A stretch of 40,911 nt of DNA from Myxococcales bacterium. GTDB lineage: Bacteria; Myxococcota_A; Polyangia; Haliangiales; Haliangiaceae. The notes beneath the pieces were generated by a model, which was not told where the DNA came from, did not search any database, and saw only the letters and a program-made list of their open reading frames with translations. Below are positions 31,350-40,387 of this stretch, one piece after another. Position 1 is the stretch's first letter. Every line of letters begins with the position of its first letter. The stretch covers positions 1-40,911 of the forward strand of contig SXJR01000052.1 of NCBI GenBank assembly GCA_005779305.1, written 5' to 3'. The position numbers and the translations under genes are program-made.

Positions 31350-34300
31350 GTGTCGACCGAGTACCTCTTCGACGCCGGGGCGCGGTTCGAGATCCGTCGC
31401 GAGCTCGGGGAGGGCGGCATGGGCGCCGTGTACGAGGCGTTCGATCGCGACGTGGGCGAGCTGGTCGCGCTCAAGACCCTGCGTCACGCCGCCGGGCAGT
31501 GGCTGGCGCGCTTCAAGCAAGAGTTTCGTTCGCTCCACGACATCGCCCATCCCAACATCGTCGCCCTGGGCGAGTTCTTCGACAGCGGGTCCGAGCCGTT
31601 CTTCACCATGGAGCTGGTGCGCGGCGTGACCTTTCTCGAACACGTCCGCCCGACCCGAGGGGCCGACGTGGCCGCCACCTACGACGAGGCACGGCTGCGC
31701 GCCGCCCTCGGGCAGCTCGCCAGTGGGGTCTCGGCGCTGCACGCCGCGGGCATGGTCCATCGCGACATCAAGCCATCGAATATCCTGGTCGCGGACGACG
31801 GGCGCGTGGTCCTGCTCGACTTCGGTCTCGTGGCCGGGGCGGCCACGGCTCAAGAGTCCGTCGACGGCATGGTCGGCACCGTCGCGTACATGGCGCCCGA
31901 GCAGGCGCTCACCGGCGAGGTCACGCCTGCGGTCGACTGGTACAGCGTCGGCGTGGTGCTCTTCGAGGCGCTCACCGGCGCGCTGCCACACGACGGACAG
32001 ACCGCCTACGAGATCGTGCTGAACAAGCAACGGGACGCGGCGCCGCGGCCGCGGCAACTGGTCGACTCCGTGCCGTCCGATCTGGACGAGCTCTGCGCCG
32101 GGTTGTTGCAGCCAGACCCGCGCGACCGCCCACCGGCGCGCTCGATCCTCGATGCCATGAGCATCGCGGCGGGTCTCCCAGCCGCGGCGGCCCCGACCAC
32201 TGGCGCCGACCTGCGCGAGAGCTCGCCGTTCGTCGGCCGGGCCCACCAGCTCGCGCGGCTCCGCAGCGGTTATGACCGCAGCCGCGAGGCCGCGCTCATC
32301 TGCCTGATCGAGGGGGTCTCGGGCGTCGGCAAGAGTCAGCTGGCCGAGGAGTTCCTCAGGCGGCTGGTTCGGGACGACCCCGACGCACTGGTCCTCACCA
32401 GCCGCTGTTACGAGCGTGAGGCCGTGACCTACAAGGCCTTCGACGGTATCGCCGTCGAGCTCAGTCGCTACCTGACGCGGCTACCGTCGGCGCGAGCGGC
32501 GGCCCTGATGCCACGACGGCCCGGGCTCCTGGGGCGGCTCTTCCCGGTGCTCAAGCGGGTCGAGGCGGTCGCCGCGGCCGGGGAGGTCCCGACGGTGGCG
32601 GATCCACACCGTCAGCGGATCCGGATGTTCGCGTCGCTGCGCGAGCTGTTCCTGCGGATCACCGAGCGGCGCCGGCTGGTCTGGTACATCGACGATCTGC
32701 AGTGGACCGATGCGGACAGCCTGGTGCTGCTCCAGGAGTTGATCGCTCACGAGGACCAGCTGCCGGTGTTCATCATCGCGACGATGCGCCCCGCCGAGGA
32801 CACGCCCCGTCAGGCCCTGCTCGCCCGACTCGAGGAGCTGGCGCCCACCGAGCGGGTACTGCTCCAGGAGCTCCGCCCCGACGAGGCCCGCGCGCTCGCG
32901 GTCCTGCTCCTGCCCGGCCGCGACGCCGCGACGCTCGACGCGGTCGCGAGCGACGCCGGCGGACACCCGCTGTTCCTGCACGAGCTGGCCCGGCACACCA
33001 GCGCCGCGCATGGCGCGGCCTCGACCGGCGCGACCCTCGACGAGATGTTGACCGCGCGCATCGCCGAGCTTCCGGCTGCCGCCCAGCGACTCCTGGACGT
33101 GGTGTCCGTGTCGGGTGTACCCCTCGCGCAGGAGGTGGCGGCGATCGCGGCGGAGCAGTCGAGCGCCGAGCAGATCAGCGCGACCGCCGTCCTGCGCGCT
33201 GCGCACCTGGCTCGCACCGACGGAGTCCGCCGCTCCGATCGCATCGTCGCGTTCCATGATCGGGTTCGCGAGCACGTGGCGGCTCGCCTCGACGAGGCGA
33301 AGCGCCGGCACCTCCACGAGCGCGTGGCGCTGGCGCTCGAGCAAAGCGGCGCTGCCGAACACGATCCACGCGAGCTGGTCCGTCATGCCCGGGCCGCCGG
33401 GCGGGTCACGCTTGCCGCCGCGCGCGCGCAGTCGGCCGCTCGGCAGGCGATGACGGCGCTGGCGTTCGATCAGGCGGCTGAGTTCTTCGCGGTTGCGATC
33501 GAGCTGGGCAGCTACGACCCCGAGACCCTGCGCGGCCTGCGGATCGAGCTGGCCACCGCCCTCGTGCACGCGGGCCGGGGGCCCGAGGCCGCCACCCAGT
33601 TCCTCGCGGCCGCGGACGGCGCCGACCCGGCGGTCCGGCTCGATTGCCAGCGGCAGGCAGCCGATCAGTGGATCATCACCGGGCACCTCGAGCGAGGCAT
33701 GGCCGCGCTGCGCACCTCGCTGGCCGACATCGGCGAACCGCTGGCGGCGACTCCTCGGCGGGCCCTCGCGCGGGTGCTGTGGAACCGTGCCCGCCTGCGG
33801 CTGCGTGGCATCCGCCACGAGCGGCGCTCCGAGAGTCAGGTCCCGGTCGAGACGCTGCGCAAGCTCGACGTGCTCAAGGCGGTCGGACATGGCCTCGCCA
33901 TGGTCGACAACATCCGCGGCGCCGACTTCAACGGTCGGTTCCTGTTGCTGGCGCTCGAGACCGGCGAATCGCGTCGCCTGGTCGGCGCGCTGGCGACCGA
34001 GGTGGTGTTCCTCGCCAGCCAGGCTGGCCGCGCCGGGCGACGTGCCCGGCTGCTGTACTCGGAGCTGGTCCGGATCGCCGAGGATTGCCCGGATCACGGG
34101 TTCGCGCGCACCTGGCTGTCGCTCGCCGACGGCGCCGCCTGCTTCTTCGAGGGGCGGTTTGCGCCCGCGGTGCGGTCGCTGGAGACCGCGGAGACGGAGT
34201 CGGCGAATGCGCAGACGAGCCTGACCTACGAGCGCAATAACTCGCGCGTGTTTCGCATCCACGCGCTGCGCTTGCTGGGTGCGTTGCAGCAGCAGCACGC

Positions 34301-35012
34301 GTTGATCCGCGAGTTCGTGCGCAACGGGCGTCAGCGCGGCGATCGGTACCTGGAGACCACGCTGCGACTCCTTCAGGGGCAATCGTTGCTCGGGCGCGGC
34401 GACGTCGGCGGCGCGCGCGCGAGCCTCGAGGAGGCGACCTGGTCACCGCCCGAGCAAGGCTTCCATCTGCAGCACTGGTACGAGCTGCGAGCGCGGGTCG
34501 AGCTCGCCATCTACGAGCAGACGGCGCCGGCGGCGGTCCCCGAGCTGATGCCCCGCTTCGCCGCGCTGGATCGGTCGATGCTGTTGCGCGTGAAGCTGGT
34601 CCGGGCCGATGCCACCGCGCTCCGGGGCCGGCTCTTCTTGGCCGCGGCTGCAGCCGGCACCGACCTCGGATCCAGGCTCGATGAGGTCAGGAAGCTGGTG
34701 CGAAAGCTCGAGGGCGAGGGAACCGGGTACGCCACGGTGTACGCGCTGTTGTTGCGGGCCGGGCTCGCGGCGGTCGCCCCCGGGACCTCTCGCGAAGACG
34801 CGATCGCGCCGCTCCGCCAGGCGATCTCGGTCGCCGCGGATCACGACATGGCGCTGCACCTGGCGGCCGCCCGCGATCGGCTGGGTGGGCTGCTCGGCGG
34901 GGACGAGGGGGCCGCCCTGCGCGCCAGTGCCGCCGCGTACGTCTCCACGGAGGGCGTGGTCGCTTCGGACCTCCTGTTCGAGCTCCAGGCGCCTGGGATC
35001 GCCCGGCGCTGA
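31350..35012 (+). CDS. Multidomain Ser/Thr kinase with AAA-type ATPase and helical-repeat region
   Basis: A 1220-residue signalling protein. Kinase at ~10-270: Gly-loop [14 protein letters not shown] with K42, HRDIKPSN (137-144), DFG 157-159, MAPEQ. Then a predicted P-loop AAA/ATPase at ~290-560: [11 protein letters not shown], Walker A G-V-S-G-V-G-K328-S, Walker [11 protein letters not shown] (D448/D449), as in AAA_16/LuxR-MalT-like STAND ATPases. The remaining ~650 residues are helical repeats (TPR-like, e.g. [25 protein letters not shown]) for partner binding. This architecture is common in large-genome Myxococcota. No membrane segment, so cytoplasmic. GTG 31350 is used since it starts immediately before the kinase fold. 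Confidence 0.88.
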
Positions 35013-35018
35013 AGCGCC

Positions 35019-35747
35019 TCAGGTCGCCTTGGGCAGCGGCACCGAAAGCACCGGGCACATCGCGTCGCGGATGACGTGCTCGGTGCGGCTGCCGAGCAGG
35101 ACGTCGCCGAGACCGTCGTGAGCGTGGGTGGTCATGACGATCGCGCAGGCCTGGTCGGAGCGCGCGCGGGCGAGGATCGCCGCCACCACGTTGCCGCTGG
35201 CCACGTGCAGGACCTCGATCTCGGCGTGGACGCCGGCCAGCGCGGCCAGGGCCCGGGCGGCGGCCTTGCCGCGCTCGGCCTCGTCGTCGGTGCCGGCCGG
35301 GACCAGCAGGCGCCGGAGATCGATCGCTCCCGTGGACGGGTCGACGAAGCCGCGCACGTGGTTGGGCACGATCAGGGTCGGCACGGCGACGTTGCGCGCG
35401 ACCGCTTCGGCGACGCTGCCGGCCAGGAGCGCGGTCAGGCCGTGGCGGGCGTGGGTCCCCACCACCAGGAGCTGAGGATCGATCGAGCGCACGGCGTCGA
35501 TGAGGGTGTCGGCCACGTCGTCGCAGCACTCGTGGCAGATCCGCCGGTGGTCGATCGGCCGGTTCCAGCGCGCGCTCAGCGGCGCCGCATCGGGCAGGCT
35601 CGCCGCCTCGGCGGCTCCGGCGTTGCCGTGAACCGTGACCAGGCGGACACCGCTGGCGGCGGCCAGGGCCGCGGCGTGATGGAACGCGGCGACGTCGGCG
35701 CCGCTGAGGTCGGTGGTGTGGGCGATCGCCGCGGTGGTCATGGTCAC
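35019..35747 (-). CDS. Tandem universal stress protein with a CxxCC motif
   Basis: A 242-residue protein of two UspA-like domains (residues ~3-125 and ~140-240). Domain 1 ends [35 protein letters not shown]; domain 2 has [34 protein letters not shown]. Both have the G-x2-G-x9-G(S/T)-type ATP-binding region. Unusual for Usp: C71-H-E-C74-C75 in domain 1, which could bind metal or react with persulfide. GTG 35747 overlaps the MBL stop by four bases; ATG 35741 is the alternative. Last gene of the rhodanese-led unit. Confidence 0.85.
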
Positions 35748-36646
35748 CGCTCCTGCTGGCGGGGCGTAGGTTCGCCGAGCTCGTCGGCCGGGCGCAGTAC
35801 GTTGAGGGGGACCACGAGGTAGCGGTGGCCGTTGGCGTGGGGCGCGGGCAGCCGGCCGGCGTCGACGTTGACCTGGACGCTCGGGAACAGGAGCCGCGGC
35901 GCGGGCAGGCTGGCGTCGCGGGCGCGGCGCAGCAACACGAAGGCCTCGCGGGTCGTGGTCGCCGACAGCTGCGGGTTCTTCGCCTTCGAGGCCCCGATCG
36001 TGGTCTGCCAGCGGACCTCGCGGCCGCCGGGCTGGTAGTCGTGCCCGACGAAGACCCGGGTGTCGTCGGGCAGCGCGTACAGCCGCTGCACCGAGTCGTA
36101 GAGCGCCTCGGCGCTGCCGCGCGGGAAGTCGCAGCGGCCGGTGCCGTAGTCCTCGGTGAACAGCGTGTCGCCGGTGAAGACGGCGTCGCCGATCTTGAGG
36201 CTCACGCAGGCCGGCGTGTGGCCGGGCGTCGCGATCACCTCGATCGTCAACGAACCCGCGCCCAGCATCTCGCCGTCGGCGAGCAGATGGTCGAACTGCG
36301 AACCGTCGGTGGCGAAGCTGGCCGGCAGGTCGAAGATGGGCCGGAACGTGGTCTGGACCTCGCGGATCCGCTCGCCGATCGCGATCCGCGCATCGAAGCG
36401 CCGGCGCAGGAGCTGGGAGCCCGAGAGGTGGTCGGCGTGGGCGTGGGTCTCCACCGCGTAGTGCAGGCGCAGCTGCTCACGCTGGAGGTAGGCGGTCACG
36501 CGATCCACGGACTCGGTCCAGGTCGTGCCGTTGGCCGGGTCGTAGTCGAGGACCGGATCGATCACGACCGCATCACGGCTGACCAGATCCGCGACCACGT
36601 AGGTCAGGGTCGAGGTGCGGGCGTCGTAGAAGGGTTCGATGTGCAT
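35744..36646 (-). CDS. Persulfide dioxygenase-like MBL enzyme (Blh type)
   Basis: A 300-residue metallo-beta-lactamase-fold protein. Metal motif T-H68-A-H70-A-D72-H73, then [12 protein letters not shown] and [27 protein letters not shown]. The DYGTxRCDFPxG block is typical of the Blh/PDO branch of persulfide dioxygenases that convert GSSH-type persulfides to sulfite. ATG 36646 has the Shine-Dalgarno GAGAGGA 11 bases before it. It lies 10 bases after the rhodanese gene; rhodanese, dioxygenase and the sulfite/thiosulfate carriers form a sulfur detoxification set. Confidence 0.87.
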
Positions 36647-36656
36647 GGCGTTCCTC

Positions 36657-37016
36657 TCAGCGCTTCACGACCGGGAACCCGGCCGCGTTGTAGGCGAGCA
36701 TCCCGCCGGCGAGGTTCAGGACCTGGTGGAAGCCGGCGTCGACCAGGGTGCGCGCGGCGCTTCCCGAGCGCGCGCCCGAGCGGCAGACCAGCACGATGAC
36801 CTGGTCGCGCGGCCAGGACGCCGCGCGCGCCGCGACCGTCGAGAGCGGCGCCAGTTCGACGCCTGCGATGTGACCGAGTTCGCCGGTCAGCTCGTGCGGC
36901 TCGCGCACGTCGACGACACGCACGGTGCCCAGAGCTGACCGCAGCCCCTCGGGCGAGACGTCGCGATAGCCGGACGTGGTGGGCTTCGCGGAGGTGAAGA
37001 TCGCAGCGGTTTGCAT
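36657..37016 (-). CDS. Single-domain rhodanese
   Basis: A 119-residue sulfurtransferase with the active-site loop C78-R-S-G-A-R-S (VCRSGARSG) and the [10 protein letters not shown] entry. It carries sulfane sulfur on Cys78 and would pass it to glutathione, thiosulfate or a carrier. First gene of the minus-strand unit rhodanese-MBL-Usp, downstream of a sigma-54-like promoter (37049-37064). ATG 37016; the in-frame GTG further up (37037) lies at the predicted transcription start and is unlikely. Confidence 0.88.
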
Positions 37017-37048
37017 GGGGGCGCCTCGGGTGGACACACCGCCGGAGT

Positions 37049-37064
37049 TGCACGGGCGATGCCA
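37049..37064 (-). promoter_or_regulatory. Sigma-54 (-24/-12) promoter of the rhodanese unit
   Basis: On the minus strand TGGCATCGCCCGTGCA: TGGCA and TGCA with GG and GC exactly ten bases apart, as the sigma-54 consensus TGGCACG-N4-TTGCA requires. Transcription would start near 37038, about 22 bases before the ATG. The gene immediately upstream encodes a sigma-54 activator, which makes the match much more credible. Confidence 0.65.
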
Positions 37065-37080
37065 GCGCAGGACCCGTCAG

Positions 37081-37130
37081 GTTTCGCGGGCTACGGCCCC
37101 ACGTCCAGCGATGGCGAAACACCGTGAAAC
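37081..37130. promoter_or_regulatory. Candidate enhancer sites of the sigma-54 activator
   Basis: GTTTCGC (37081-37087), GCGAAAC (37114-37120) and GTGAAAC (37124-37130). The last two are direct repeats one helical turn apart; the first is inverted. They lie 16 to 66 bases upstream of the -24 element. The same GTGAAAC half-site recurs between the divergent TauE and PmpA-like genes. Confidence 0.5.
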
Positions 37131-37170
37131 AGCCGGTCCCGGCGTTCGGGTCTCGAACCGCTTCCGCGCG

Positions 37171-38520
37171 CTACGACGCGTCGAGGCCGTGGGCGCGCAT
37201 CCGCCGCCACAGCGTCACCCGGCTCCAGCCCAGCAGCTTGGCGGCGCGGTCGCGATTTCCGGCGGTGCGGGCCAGCGCGTCGCGGATCCGTCGCACCTCG
37301 GGCGTGAGCTCGGGATCGAGCACCGCCGCCTCGGCGACCACCGTCACCTCGGCACCGCCGGGGTCGGTGGCCGCGATCTCGGGCGGCAGGTGGCCGAGCT
37401 CGAGCACCGAACCCTCACCGATCGCGAAGGCGTAGGAGAGGGCGTTGCGCAGCTCGCGGACGTTGCCGAGCCACTCGTGACGCTCCATGGCCGCCTCGGC
37501 GGCGAGCGAGATGCTCTCGATCCGGCGCCGGCCGCGCTGGTTGAGCTCGTCGATGATCTTGCCGGCGATCAGCCGGACGTCGGCGGGGCGTTCGCGCAAG
37601 GGGGGCAAGCGGATCGGGATCACGCGCAGCCGGTACATCAGGTCGGCGCGGAAGCGACCGGCCGCGACCTCGGCGCGCAGGGCCCGGTGGGTGGCCGAGA
37701 CGACGCGGACGTCCACCGGCATCGGGTCGCGGCCGCCGACCGGCAGCACGGTCCGGGTCTCGATCACGCGCAGGAGCTTGGCCTGCAGCTCGAGCGGCAG
37801 CTCCGCGACCTCGTCGAGGAACAGGGGGCCGCCATCGGCGAGCTGGATGTGGCCGGGGGTGTCCTTGATCGCGCCGGTGAACGCGCCACGGACGTGCCCG
37901 AAGAGCTCGCTCTCGAGCAGGTTGGCCGGCAGCGCGGCGCAGTTGATGGCGCGGAAGGGGCCGGCGTGGCGTGGCGAGCGAGCGTGGAGCGCGTGCGCGA
38001 CCAGCTCCTTGCCCGAGCCGGTCTCGCCGCGGATCAGCACGGTGAAGTCCTCGGCGGCCACCTTCTCGATGATGCGGAACGCCTCCTTCATGCGGGGATC
38101 GCGGGTCCACAGCCCGTGGAACAGCTCGGGCGCGTCGTCGTCGCCGGCGACCGCGGCCACGAGCACGATCCACCCCTGGGTCGTGGCGCCGCCACCGAGC
38201 GGGATCGACCGTACCCGCACCTGCTCGCCACTGGCGTCGCCCGGCCTGCCGGGGCGCGGGATGACCGCCTGGAACCCGACGCCGCTCGCCAGCGCCTCGG
38301 CGAACGGACGCTTGGGCCGGTCACCACACAGGAGCGTCGCCGCCGAGCCTCCGAGCGGGACCTCGAAGCCGAGGACCTCGGCGGCGCCGTGTGAGGCGGC
38401 CCGGACCCGGAGCTGGTCGTCGAGCACCAGCACGGCGCCGACGAGCTCGTCGAGGGCCTGGGCGAAGAGCTCGCGATCGGGGTCGGCCGCGACCGTGCGA
38501 CGAGGGGCGCGAGGTTTCAT
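37171..38520 (-). CDS. Sigma-54-dependent activator (PAS, AAA+, Fis-type HTH)
   Basis: A 449-residue enhancer-binding protein. N-terminal PAS-like sensor (residues ~15-125: [28 protein letters not shown]) with a single Cys65; AAA+ core with Walker A GETGSGKE (165-172), the sigma-54 contact loop GAFTGA (212-217), Walker B LFLDEV, and R-finger region; Fis-type helix-turn-helix at the C terminus ([27 protein letters not shown]). Not a phospho-receiver. FisR, which senses polysulfide, uses three Cys in its sensor; here only one Cys is present, so sensing differs. It sits between the two gene sets it probably controls. ATG 38520. Confidence 0.9.
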
Positions 38521-38559
38521 CGACGCTGACACTACACGCTGGGTGGCGCGCGGCGGCGC

Positions 38560-39318
38560 TCAGATCAGGCCGAGCTGCTTGCTCAGCACGAACGCCGCCA
38601 TGACCAGGACGAAGACGCCGAAGCCGCGGCGGAGGGTCTCCCCGGGGATGCGACCGACGAGGCGCCCGCCGATCAGGCTGCCGACCACCGCCGCCGCGGT
38701 GACGGCGAGCGTGATCGGCCAGTCGACGTCGACGTGGCCGAGGTGACCGGCGAGGCCCGCGAACGACTTCATCGTGATCACCACCAGCGAGGTGCCGACC
38801 GCGACCTCCATGGAGAGCCCACCCAGCAGCACCAGCGCGGGCACCACCAGGAAGCCGCCGCCGGCGCCGACCAGGCCGGTCACCGCGCCGACCACGCCGC
38901 CCTCGACGAGGACCTTGCCCACCGGCAGCTCGGCGGGGGTGGTCCGGGCGGCGCCCAGGGGCGCGCGCCGGCCGCGCAGCATGGCGACGGCGGTGGCGAT
39001 CATCATCCCGGCGAACAGGAGCATCAGCACGCCGCCCGGCACGAACGCGGCCACGCGCCCGCCGGCGAACGCGCCGACCATGCCGGCGGCGCCGAACAGG
39101 AGGCCGGTGCGCCAGCGGATCCGTCCGGCGCGGGCGTGGGCGATGGCCCCGGTCGCGCTGGTCACGCCGACCACGAACAGCGACGCGGCGATCGCCGCCT
39201 TGGTCTCCATGCCGATCGCGTAGGTCAGGATCGGCATCGTCATGATCGAGCCGCCGCCGCCCAGGAGGCCGAGCGAGACGCCGATCAGGATCGAGAGCGA
39301 GAGGGCGAGGACCAGCAT
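38560..39318 (-). CDS. TauE/SafE-family sulfite/organosulfonate exporter
   Basis: A 252-residue polytopic protein with the two family repeats: GVSLGLLGGGGSIMTMPIL near the N terminus and TGLVGAGGGFLVVPALVLLGG at mid-protein, separated by a cytoplasmic loop. Eight or so membrane helices. Family members export sulfite or sulfoacetate. In this context, removal of the sulfite formed by the dioxygenase is likely. ATG 39318, divergent from the PmpA-like gene; the stop is 39 bases from the activator start. Confidence 0.85.
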   Translation of the reverse strand: MLVLALSLSILIGVSLGLLGGGGSIMTMPILTYAIGMETKAAIAASLFVVGVTSATGAIAHARAGRIRWRTGLLFGAAGMVGAFAGGRVAAFVPGGVLMLLFAGMMIATAVAMLRGRRAPLGAARTTPAELPVGKVLVEGGVVGAVTGLVGAGGGFLVVPALVLLGGLSMEVAVGTSLVVITMKSFAGLAGHLGHVDVDWPITLAVTAAAVVGSLIGGRLVGRIPGETLRRGFGVFVLVMAAFVLSKQLGLI

Positions 39319-39330
39319 GGCCGTCACCTC

Positions 39331-39346
39331 TTCAAGCGCGGTGCCA
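39331..39346 (-). promoter_or_regulatory. Sigma-54-like promoter of the TauE gene
   Basis: Minus strand TGGCACCGCGCTTGAA: -24 half nearly perfect, -12 half TTGA instead of TTGC. The predicted start falls about 2 bases before ATG 39318, so transcripts would be almost leaderless; this weakens the call. Confidence 0.35.
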
Positions 39347-39383
39347 CCCGTAGCTGTGCGGATCCAGGCTCCCTCGCGCGGGC

Positions 39384-39426
39384 GTGAAACGTCGAGCAAC
39401 ACGCGGTCGCGGCCGGTTCGTTTCAG
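39384..39426. promoter_or_regulatory. Shared enhancer candidate: inverted GTGAAAC / GTTTCAG
   Basis: GTGAAAC (39384-39390) and GTTTCAG (39420-39426) face each other over 29 bases, between the divergent TauE and PmpA-like promoters. The half-site equals the one upstream of the rhodanese promoter, and the gap from GTTTCAG to the -24 box of the PmpA-like gene (48 bp) equals the gap in the rhodanese promoter (49 bp). Confidence 0.5.
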
Positions 39427-39474
39427 CACCACCCCGGCGGCGCCCGAACCCTGCGATTGCCGCGACGGTCAGCC

Positions 39475-39490
39475 TGGCCCGCGGACTGCA
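39475..39490 (+). promoter_or_regulatory. Sigma-54 (-24/-12) promoter of the PmpA-like gene
   Basis: TGGCCCGCGGACTGCA: TGGC-CG and TGCA with GG and GC ten bases apart, one mismatch in each half of the consensus. The predicted start (~39500) lies just before ATG 39504, giving a very short leader. Confidence 0.45.
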
Positions 39491-39503
39491 ACGGCTCGAC
39501 CTC

Positions 39504-39920
39504 ATGCCCAGCTCCTGGTTGTTCGCGCTCGCCGGCGGATCGATGATCGGCGCCGCCGGTGCGCTCCTGCTCCTGACCCATGGGCGGATCGCCGGCATCA
39601 GCGGTGTGCTCGGGTCGCTATTGCCGCCGACCGCCGTGCGCGATCGCGGGTGGAGGGTCGCGTTCCTCGGCGGCCTACTCGCCGCCGGTGTCGTCGCCGC
39701 GGCGTTCGCACCCGCCGCGGTCGGCGCATCGGTGCGTTCGCTGCCGCTGGTGATCGTGGCCGGCGCGATCGTCGGGTTCGGGACCCGGCTGGGCAGCGGC
39801 TGCACCAGCGGACACGGCGTGTGCGGCCTGTCGCGCTTCTCCCTGCGCTCGATGGTCGCGGTCGTGACGTTCATGACCACCGGCGCGATCACCGCGTGGC
39901 TCGCCGGAGGTTGGTCGTGA
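39504..39920 (+). CDS. YeeE/YedE-family transporter half, PmpA-like
   Basis: A 138-residue membrane protein with four helices, the first half of a YeeE/YedE fold. LLLLTHGRIAGISGVLG and R-L-G-S-G-C100-T-S-G-H-G-V-C107-G-L-S are the conserved cysteine-bearing motifs; in YeeE these cysteines relay thiosulfate through the membrane. ATG 39504. Stop overlaps the GTG of the second half by four bases, so both halves are made together and should pair into one channel. Confidence 0.88.
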   Translation: MPSSWLFALAGGSMIGAAGALLLLTHGRIAGISGVLGSLLPPTAVRDRGWRVAFLGGLLAAGVVAAAFAPAAVGASVRSLPLVIVAGAIVGFGTRLGSGCTSGHGVCGLSRFSLRSMVAVVTFMTTGAITAWLAGGWS

Positions 39921-40387
39921 CCGCGGTCGCCGACTGCGGCCTGCGCTGCCGGCTGCTGTCGATCGTCCTCGCCGTCGTGGCCGGCGGGCTGTTCGGCGCC
40001 GGCCTCCTGATCTCCGGGATGACCCAGCCGGCGCGGGTCATCGGCTTCCTCGATGTCACCCGCGGCTGGGATCCCAGCCTGGCTTTCGTCATGGGTGGTG
40101 CGGTCGTGGTGTACGCGCTCGCGTTTCGCTGGATCCGCCGGGATCGCCGCGATCCGTGGTTCGACGTCACCTTTCACCTGCCCACCCGCCGCGACCTCGA
40201 CGCGCCCTTGCTCGTCGGGGCCGCGCTGTTCGGCGTCGGCTGGGGCCTCGGCGGCCTCTGTCCGGGCCCCGGCCTGGTCGCTGCCGCCTCCGGCAGCATC
40301 ACCGGGCTGGCCTTCGCTGCGGCGATGATCGCCGGCATGTTCCTCCAGCACCTGTCGGCGCGGGTCAGGGCTGGCGGGTCAGCGTGA
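39917..40387 (+). CDS. YeeE/YedE-family transporter half, PmpB-like
   Basis: A 156-residue membrane protein forming the second half: GLFGAGLLISGMTQPARVIGFLD, then FVMGGAVVVYALAFRW, and VGWGLGGLC115-P-G-P-G with the third conserved cysteine motif. GTG 39917 overlaps the PmpA-like stop. The 3' end overlaps the convergent frameshifted gene by 23 bases. PmpA/PmpB pairs are linked to persulfide dioxygenases in other bacteria. Confidence 0.88.
   Translation: MTAVADCGLRCRLLSIVLAVVAGGLFGAGLLISGMTQPARVIGFLDVTRGWDPSLAFVMGGAVVVYALAFRWIRRDRRDPWFDVTFHLPTRRDLDAPLLVGAALFGVGWGLGGLCPGPGLVAAASGSITGLAFAAAMIAGMFLQHLSARVRAGGSA

Follow-up and report, generated by a model that had tools for sequence, protein, structure and literature searches.

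Which regulator controls a cluster of genes for the handling of reactive sulfur in a Myxococcales bacterium, and through which DNA elements? The cluster (positions 35019–40387) lies in a stretch of 40,911 nucleotides, hereafter the window, which is contig C309 of an 8.1-Mb genome (611 contigs, 75% complete). It comprises genes for a rhodanese, a Blh-type persulfide dioxygenase, a Usp protein, a TauE/SafE transporter and the two halves of a YeeE/YedE transporter (PmpA-like and PmpB-like), grouped around the gene for a sigma-54 activator (37171–38532, minus strand). An earlier note, made from the letters of the window, had described a sulfur-detoxification gene set around a sigma-54 activator, and profile scans of the window proteins against Pfam and NCBIfam bear this out at the same coordinates. 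Comparison with related loci makes a more specific proposal very probable: a FisR-family activator controls three transcription units of the module (tauE–activator, pmpAB and rhodanese–dioxygenase–usp) via direct repeats of the form GTTTCA-N4-GTTTCA. The observation in the earlier note is confirmed; its interpretation as a whole is partly supported.

Each of the three units is preceded by a −24/−12-like box at the coordinates first reported. The box of the rhodanese operon (37049–37064, minus strand; TGGCATCGCCCGTGCA) is the only TGGCAY-N6-TGCA of the window, and is followed by an in-frame GTG at 11 nt and by the rhodanese ATG at 32 nt; the box of pmpAB (39475–39490, plus strand; TGGCCCGCGGACTGCA) lies 13 nt, and that of tauE–activator (39331–39346, minus strand; TGGCACCGCGCTTGAA) 12 nt, before the respective ATG. 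Two predicted enhancer repeats accompany them. One (GTTTCACGGTGTTTCG; 37115–37130, minus strand) is located 50 bp upstream of the rhodanese box, with a single degenerate copy, GTTTCGC (37081–37087, plus strand), recognised from the sequence between repeat and box. The other (GTTGCTCGACGTTTCA; 39385–39400, minus strand) is common to the divergent pair of units, with the TauE box 38 bp and the PmpA box 74 bp away; an extra single GTTTCA, likewise recognised from the sequence, is found 49 bp before the PmpA box (39420–39425, plus strand).

Taken by itself, the window is suggestive only. TGGC-N8-TGCA occurs three times against 1.36 expected and GTGAAAC three times against 1.45 (including words at 37124–37130 and 39384–39390), and in each case 15 of 100 shuffled sequences also reach three. 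The 16-bp direct repeat (at most two mismatches) weakly exceeds within-window chance, with two copies, both in promoter regions, against 0.29 expected, and 4 of 100 shuffles reaching two. Between the TauE and PmpA genes there are two exact GTTTCA/TGAAAC words, a count reached in 5 of 5000 shuffles, and in the activator–rhodanese region there is one, reached in 287 of 5000. Because the box and GTGAAAC counts do not rise above chance within the window, the case is a comparative one.

For the comparison, 31 clade loci were assembled from the best activator matches together with the window and locus L063, chosen by their activator and not by its neighbours, and were set against 79 other activator loci, 3 to 15 kb long and mostly of generic activators from a contig scan; among the matches listed, FisR-clade members are known from at least 31 loci. 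The 17 activators aligned with that of the window are 51–81% identical to it. At least one module gene is present in the stretch fetched in 24 of the 31 clade loci (window included), compared with 1 of the 79 controls. Of these 24 loci, 15 carry a box (at most one mismatch) within 300 bp upstream of module genes, as against 83 of 3100 stretches of 321 bp drawn at random from the same loci, and 15 likewise carry a repeat (at most one mismatch), as against 59 of 3100, although the two kinds of rate are not on a par, several module genes having been examined per locus. Boxes like TGGCAYCG-N4-TGCA precede PmpA and the first gene after the activator. Direct repeats with a spacing of 4 (at most one mismatch) give 30 matches in 19 of the 31 clade loci, versus 9 in 7 of the 79 controls, which amount to 2.2 times the DNA; every other spacing between 0 and 25 yields 0–8 matches, the runner-up being spacing 6 (8 matches in 6 loci).

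As judged from this conservation, the candidate enhancer is the direct repeat GTTTCA-N4-GTTTCA, with a 10-bp period, and not the pair of GTGAAAC half-sites that had been proposed. The words themselves are there, but the pair considered as an operator (TGAAAC-N29-GTTTCA) gives 3 matches in 3 of 31 clade loci versus 3 in 3 of 79 controls, with no clear excess, and the spacing-4 repeat replaces it. A motif scan near orthologous activators, suggested in the earlier note, recovers the boxes in this way and not the half-site pairs, and its two further proposals, of sigma-54 promoters at the three units and of a single enhancer set used by both divergent genes, tauE and pmpA, are supported. Loci lacking both elements, which it had named as the finding that would speak against it, form a minority: both (box with at most one, repeat with at most two mismatches) occur in 13 of the 24 clade loci with module genes, and neither in six (L035, L048, L055, L056, L057 and L058). 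The lack in L035 is explained by its genome (G006), in which module and elements sit on another contig; the other five are unexplained.

Repeats and boxes are also placed in register. On the TauE, persulfide dioxygenase (PDO) and rhodanese (Rhod) side the gaps between them fall at 38–40, 48–52, 57–59 and 70–72 bp (20 cases), and on the PmpA side at 73, 74, 85, 85, 96, 103 and 106 bp (7 cases); between species, the distances shift by about whole helical turns. Helical phasing at ~10.5 bp gives R = 0.76 for the 20 forward cases and R = 0.80 for the 7 PmpA-side cases, with an approximate permutation p of 0.0006 on the 12 distinct forward gap values, which is too small a value, since kinship among the clade loci makes the statistics overstate independence and two mismatches occur in some repeats. 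The underlying list has 32 boxes, from which four marked ‘?’, at no identified module gene, were left out to give 28 promoters in 11 loci; these 28 count L037 ‘PmpA?’ and L039 ‘PDO?’, and the phasing test omits the four together with the L039 ‘PDO?’ gap of 93. The same arrangement is seen in G006, at a locus outside the motif definition: here the module is on contig C69 and the activator gene on C16 (L035), and C69 has a repeat with no mismatches, followed by a box at 48 bp; both the PDO and the PmpA gene are preceded by boxes, and two boxes have an ATG 12 nt on. In the genome of the window itself, two copies of the exact 15-base repeat are present, one in the window and one on contig C74; the C74 copy, considered as a second regulon site, was set aside as chance, lying inside an open reading frame (L143:7701–8477) beside what by eye is an ABC permease-like gene. 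With one mismatch allowed, this 15-base pattern, which would miss the window's second repeat, has 12 further matches versus 6 for its reversed control, so that other targets in the genome may exist.

The activator shows the three-part architecture of FisR, with a PAS-like N-terminal sensor (residues ~1–137, including Cys69), an AAA+ domain (143–307; PF00158, 220 bits; the protein also matches PF25601) and a Fis-type helix-turn-helix (HTH; 412–447; PF02954, 49 bits). In a tree of 112 activators (L122 being dropped as too short), the two Acinetobacter FisR rows form the sister group of the 31 clade rows and L064, all of these standing apart from the remaining 78 rows, with support of 99/99, a rough value since the bootstrap had not settled. 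The AAA+/HTH part thus belongs, by sequence, to the FisR clade, a kinship to studied FisR that runs through the Acinetobacter rows, with Cupriavidus FisR outside the comparison. Among the best 30 of 2425 records from a plasmid collection, the highest bit scores for the window activator (246–249) are those of four A. baumannii records. One of these, H10, encodes homoserine dehydrogenase, TauE (TSUP), an SQR-type oxidoreductase, PDO and a divergent activator, and is identified as the FisR locus by gene set and order, matching the published description (PMC7315123), and not by locus tag. By BLASTP the window activator is 49% identical to this FisR across 306 AAA+ and HTH residues, the N-terminal domain giving no significant match. 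The 191-bp FisR–PDO intergenic region of A. baumannii contains four exact GTTTCA/TGAAAC words (shuffle mean 0.15; none of 5000 shuffles reaches four) and a −24/−12 box, TGGCATCTTATTTGCA, oriented toward PDO. Its copies are arranged otherwise, as two TGAAAC 11 bp apart plus a GTTTCA-A-TGAAAC palindrome, so that the word is common to both systems and the exact arrangement is not. The earlier statement that neither BigR nor FisR is present at this locus does not hold for FisR, given the tree and the shared word. A search of a phage collection with the activator gave 65 records; the five listed comprise generic activators together with two records from Acinetobacter that show a FisR-like match.

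No PAS match was found in a Pfam scan of the activator at 0.001; an AlphaFold2 model of the N-terminal 137 residues, built from two sequences (mean predicted local distance difference test score 71), has a PAS-like order of elements, and its best matches in the PDB are mostly PAS and LOV domains (E-values of 8e-5 and above). In 18 aligned sensors, chosen for having the domain (L043, with an in-frame stop, and sensor-less loci being left out), Cys69 is invariant, within the motif (L/M)CG(D/S/E/Q/T)...(R/K)PxA(E/D)A. It is the only invariant sensor cysteine, much of the remaining domain having diverged, and in 14 of the 18 sequences the aligned stretch, from which the first 20–35 residues are missing in some, has no other cysteine. 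The set of regulatory-domain cysteines reported to add to the response of Cupriavidus FisR is not seen in the window sensor, which has Cys69 alone; these cysteines are described as absent from A. baumannii FisR as well (PMC7315123), and so are not a family-wide defining feature. We infer that persulfide or polysulfide may be perceived by the PAS-like domain, perhaps through Cys69.

It is possible, if doubtful, that the activator drives these promoters through the repeats in response to a different signal, its PAS-like domain binding heme, a flavin or a metabolite and the genes belonging to a broader redox or stress response. The 27 PDB matches at E 0.001 or better, with modest template modelling scores of 0.44–0.60, do include heme and flavin PAS domains, and some clade members adjoin genes with no known sulfur role, such as the thioredoxin gene beside L041; yet sulfur genes accompany the activator in most clade loci, FisR is reported to respond to sulfide in A. 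baumannii (PMC7315123), and Cys69 is the single cysteine that the sensors have all kept. Whether the domain is the sensor at all can also be questioned. In a mechanism of the sensor-less FisR type, the AAA+/HTH part alone, or another protein, would give the response and the PAS-like domain would merely tune it, which we regard as unlikely. The sensor domain is very short or missing in clade members such as L049–L051, L055, L056 and L058, and in the A. junii protein of 327 aa annotated as FisR, which rules out Cys69 as sensor for the clade as a whole; dioxygenase or transporter genes nonetheless lie next to L055, L056, L058 and the A. junii protein, and the Cupriavidus cysteines are, as noted, lacking in A. 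baumannii FisR. Against this, the PAS-like domain with its Cys69 is retained in all 18 aligned proteins, themselves selected for it, despite divergence in much of the rest of it. As a separate observation, sensor-poor FisR-clade activators, which adjoin dioxygenase or Pmp genes in part, include the A. junii plasmid activator L061:5956–6939.

The proposal of a FisR-family activator acting on sigma-54 promoters is strengthened by the position of the boxes relative to the start codons. Transcription from sigma-54 promoters usually starts ~12 nt after the −12 element. In 24 of the 28 listed module promoters the ATG is found 12–15 nt past the box, placing the predicted start 2–5 nt before it; the exceptions are the window rhodanese, L039 Rhod (with a GTG at 12), L039 ‘PDO?’ and L045 PDO. 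That the boxes are chance matches, the operons using ordinary sigma-70 promoters and the repeats binding another regulator, is very improbable: the within-window counts and the 9 of 24 clade loci with no box (at most one mismatch) adjacent to their module genes would suit such an explanation, but it leaves unaccounted for both the constant distance to the ATG, encountered again in the out-of-sample G006, and the phasing of boxes with repeats.

The short distance extends beyond the module. In seven genomes of the genus (G000–G006), TGGCAY-N6-TGCA with an ATG within 4–34 nt occurs at 113 sites (9 of 122 listed matches, being further ATGs of the same box, were dropped), 81 of them with distances of 12–15 nt that peak sharply at 12 and 13. 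Across the phylum, 140 genomes were sampled, with further ATGs of one box included in the counts: at distances of 12–15 nt, the 29 that belong to the same class (the window's own among them) give 108 matches versus 18 with the reversed control, and the other 111 give 115 versus 44; for 20–35 nt, a range four times as wide, the same class gives 122 versus 69. Leaderlessness as a speciality of sigma-54 is ruled out, since sigma-70-like TTGAC/TANNNT sites in the same seven genomes show the same habit, with an ATG 5–10 nt on in 66 of 121 (3 of 124 dropped as further ATGs of the same box). Near-leaderless starts, as predicted from these distances, are instead a lineage trait that includes sigma-54 promoters, and the genus seems to use leaderless mRNAs widely.

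Besides the sensor-poor clade members, the inflated phasing statistics and the six loci with neither element, several results weigh against control of the module by this activator through these repeats. The TauE/PmpA repeat of the window carries two mismatches, and no repeat (at most one mismatch) was found anywhere in 12 of the 31 clade loci. In the A. junii intergenic region there are two GTTTCA/TGAAAC words, a number reached by 64 of 5000 shuffles, which is weaker evidence than that from A. baumannii. The genome of the window, at 75% completeness, has no match to the A. baumannii SQR at E 1e-20. The sulfur genes tested for are absent from the stretch fetched in 7 of the 31 clade loci (L041, L042, L046, L049–L051 and L059), and of 10 neighbour proteins scanned where clade loci have no module gene, just two are suggestive, a sulfate permease (L059) and the thioredoxin (L041). 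Finally, the −12 element of the TauE box is GA, without the consensus GC. This last is a non-consensus but recurring variant: the −12 element is TTGAA in seven and TGCT in two of the nine TauE boxes listed, and an ATG distance of 12 nt in all nine rules out a chance match. Separately, the sulfate-permease gene at L059:3638–4976 (minus strand) adjoins a FisR-clade activator gene, and a −24/−12-like box there, beginning TGGCCC, precedes an ATG by 12 nt.

Control chiefly by a BigR-type ArsR repressor encoded elsewhere is very improbable: although dioxygenase plus YeeE/YedE is a BigR-regulated set in A. baumannii (PMC7315123) and the genome has four matches to the ArsR model HTH_5, none of the four is on contig C309 (a search with the HTH_5 model only, BigR operators not being searched).

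The module genes are laid out as pmpAB on the plus strand, divergent from tauE–activator–rhodanese–dioxygenase–usp on the minus strand. PmpA-like (39504–39920, plus; PF04143, 31.5 bits against a cut-off of 27) and PmpB-like (39917–40387, plus; PF20398 (DUF6691), 139 bits) proteins form the halves of the YeeE/YedE transporter. TauE/SafE (38560–39318, minus; PF01925, 174 bits) ends 27 nt from the activator gene, a spacing from which the activator is probably cotranscribed from the tauE promoter. The rhodanese (PF00581, 47 bits; 36657–37016 from the ATG, or to 37037 from the in-frame GTG, minus) has a single cysteine, Cys78, within VCRSGAR. The metallo-beta-lactamase-fold dioxygenase (35744–36646, minus; motif HAHADH) has NF040641 as its best model, with 338 bits against a cut-off of 625, a shortfall explained by a match confined to the dioxygenase half (profile positions 143–423); it is not the rhodanese–dioxygenase fusion of bifunctional Blh, the rhodanese being a separate, adjoining gene. 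Usp (35019–35747, minus; PF00582, 96 bits in two matched stretches) is the last gene of the operon; its residues 71–75 are a cysteine cluster, CHECC, that could be a redox or metal site. Beyond it, a large serine/threonine kinase with an AAA ATPase domain (31350–35012, plus) adjoins the module, its 3′ end facing usp. One RpoN is encoded in the genome, in which the sigma-54 activator domain is matched 101 times, in many cases by fragments.

Among the relatives, L031, L032, L033 and L034 share the order PmpB-PmpA / TauE-activator-PDO-Rhod-Usp, in which the gene after the activator encodes the other dioxygenase type, 48–51% identical to A. baumannii PDO1; PDO1 is 47–51% identical to a module dioxygenase in L031–L034 and L036–L038. 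Both dioxygenase types are present in L036, L047 and L144 of G006, and SQR is in or near the module in L036, L047 and L052; the window has dioxygenase and TauE of the persulfide dioxygenase, SQR and TauE genes to which FisR is linked. From the window module (the rest of the genome was not searched for the PDO1 type) the PDO1-type gene was lost, or it was never there; its promoter now precedes rhodanese, which may explain the 32-nt distance from box to ATG. A second, diverged TauE/PmpAB/activator locus without box or repeat, L048 (G009:C508), occurs in G009 besides L031; its activator match is limited to the AAA+/HTH part (67% identity).

In the mechanism that we propose, persulfide or polysulfide, the most likely signal, would alter the PAS-like domain, and the activator would bind the 10-bp-period repeats 38–106 bp upstream of the boxes (50, 38 and 74 bp in the window) and loop to the sigma-54 polymerase on a preferred helix face, leading to promoter opening, with a single repeat serving the divergent TauE/PmpA pair. 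With its gene downstream of tauE, more activator would be made from the tauE promoter, and the circuit is expected to amplify itself. Rhodanese and dioxygenase would convert sulfane sulfur to sulfite, TauE may export sulfite or thiosulfate, and PmpAB presumably moves a sulfur compound. The comparison establishes the gene set, boxes, repeats and phasing, the kinship with FisR and the invariance of Cys69; binding, activation, autoregulation, the signal, the part played by the cysteine and the transported substrates are proposals. More broadly, we suggest, while leaning slightly against it, that a FisR-lineage activator kept its ATPase, HTH and GTTTCA word between Acinetobacter and this lineage but has a different sensor, a PAS-like domain reading reactive sulfur with a single cysteine, merged the pdo–tauE regulon of A. 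baumannii FisR with the BigR regulon yeeE–yedE–pdo2 into one self-amplifying circuit, and fires leaderless sigma-54 promoters that start 2–5 nt before the ATG, as do most sigma-54-like sites near an ATG in the genus.

The repeat amounts to a testable operator proposal for FisR-clade activators, able to find targets even with the regulator gene elsewhere, as in G006, and one invariant cysteine is put forward as sensor in a family where A. baumannii FisR is without the Cupriavidus cysteines. The genus-wide counts suggest that sigma-54 promoters can be built for (nearly) leaderless mRNAs, which bears on the prediction of start sites and start codons. A literature search, largely of titles and abstracts and with few subscription papers, returned no such FisR operator and no such module in Myxococcota; in searches of the same kind, work on S. 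meliloti treats both leaderless mRNA and sigma-54-dependent promoters without describing this pattern in the text available, and ‘leaderless’ was not found among the matches listed for myxobacteria.

Control of pdo-sqr-tauE by FisR, a sigma-54 activator responding to sulfide, and of yeeE-yedE-pdo2 by BigR is already described for A. baumannii, BigR being present also in Xylella and the operon type in Serratia (PMC7315123); what sets the present case apart is its sensor, its merged regulon, a defined direct repeat and promoters that are nearly leaderless. With the BigR operon the window shares the split YeeE/YedE transporter and a dioxygenase, and differs in a contig without an HTH_5-type regulator and in proposed sigma-54 activation as opposed to repression. 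With the FisR regulon (Acinetobacter baumannii, Cupriavidus) it shares the activator's AAA+/HTH clade, as compared for A. baumannii, the GTTTCA word and −24/−12 box which in that species lie between activator and PDO, and persulfide dioxygenase and TauE among the targets, with SQR in some relatives of the window. It differs in a single-cysteine sensor without a significant BLASTP match, in tauE and activator probably forming one operon, in the addition of PmpAB, rhodanese, the Blh-type dioxygenase and Usp to a module without the relatives' PDO1-type gene, and in near-leaderless promoters, as against box-to-ATG distances of 37 and 40 nt in two Acinetobacter loci. Leaderless genes are reported in 8 of 33 delta-proteobacterial genomes by a survey in whose text, as available, ‘sigma54’ is absent (PMC3160421); the predicted start a few nt from the start codon is the same here, and the difference is that it falls at predicted sigma-54 promoters.

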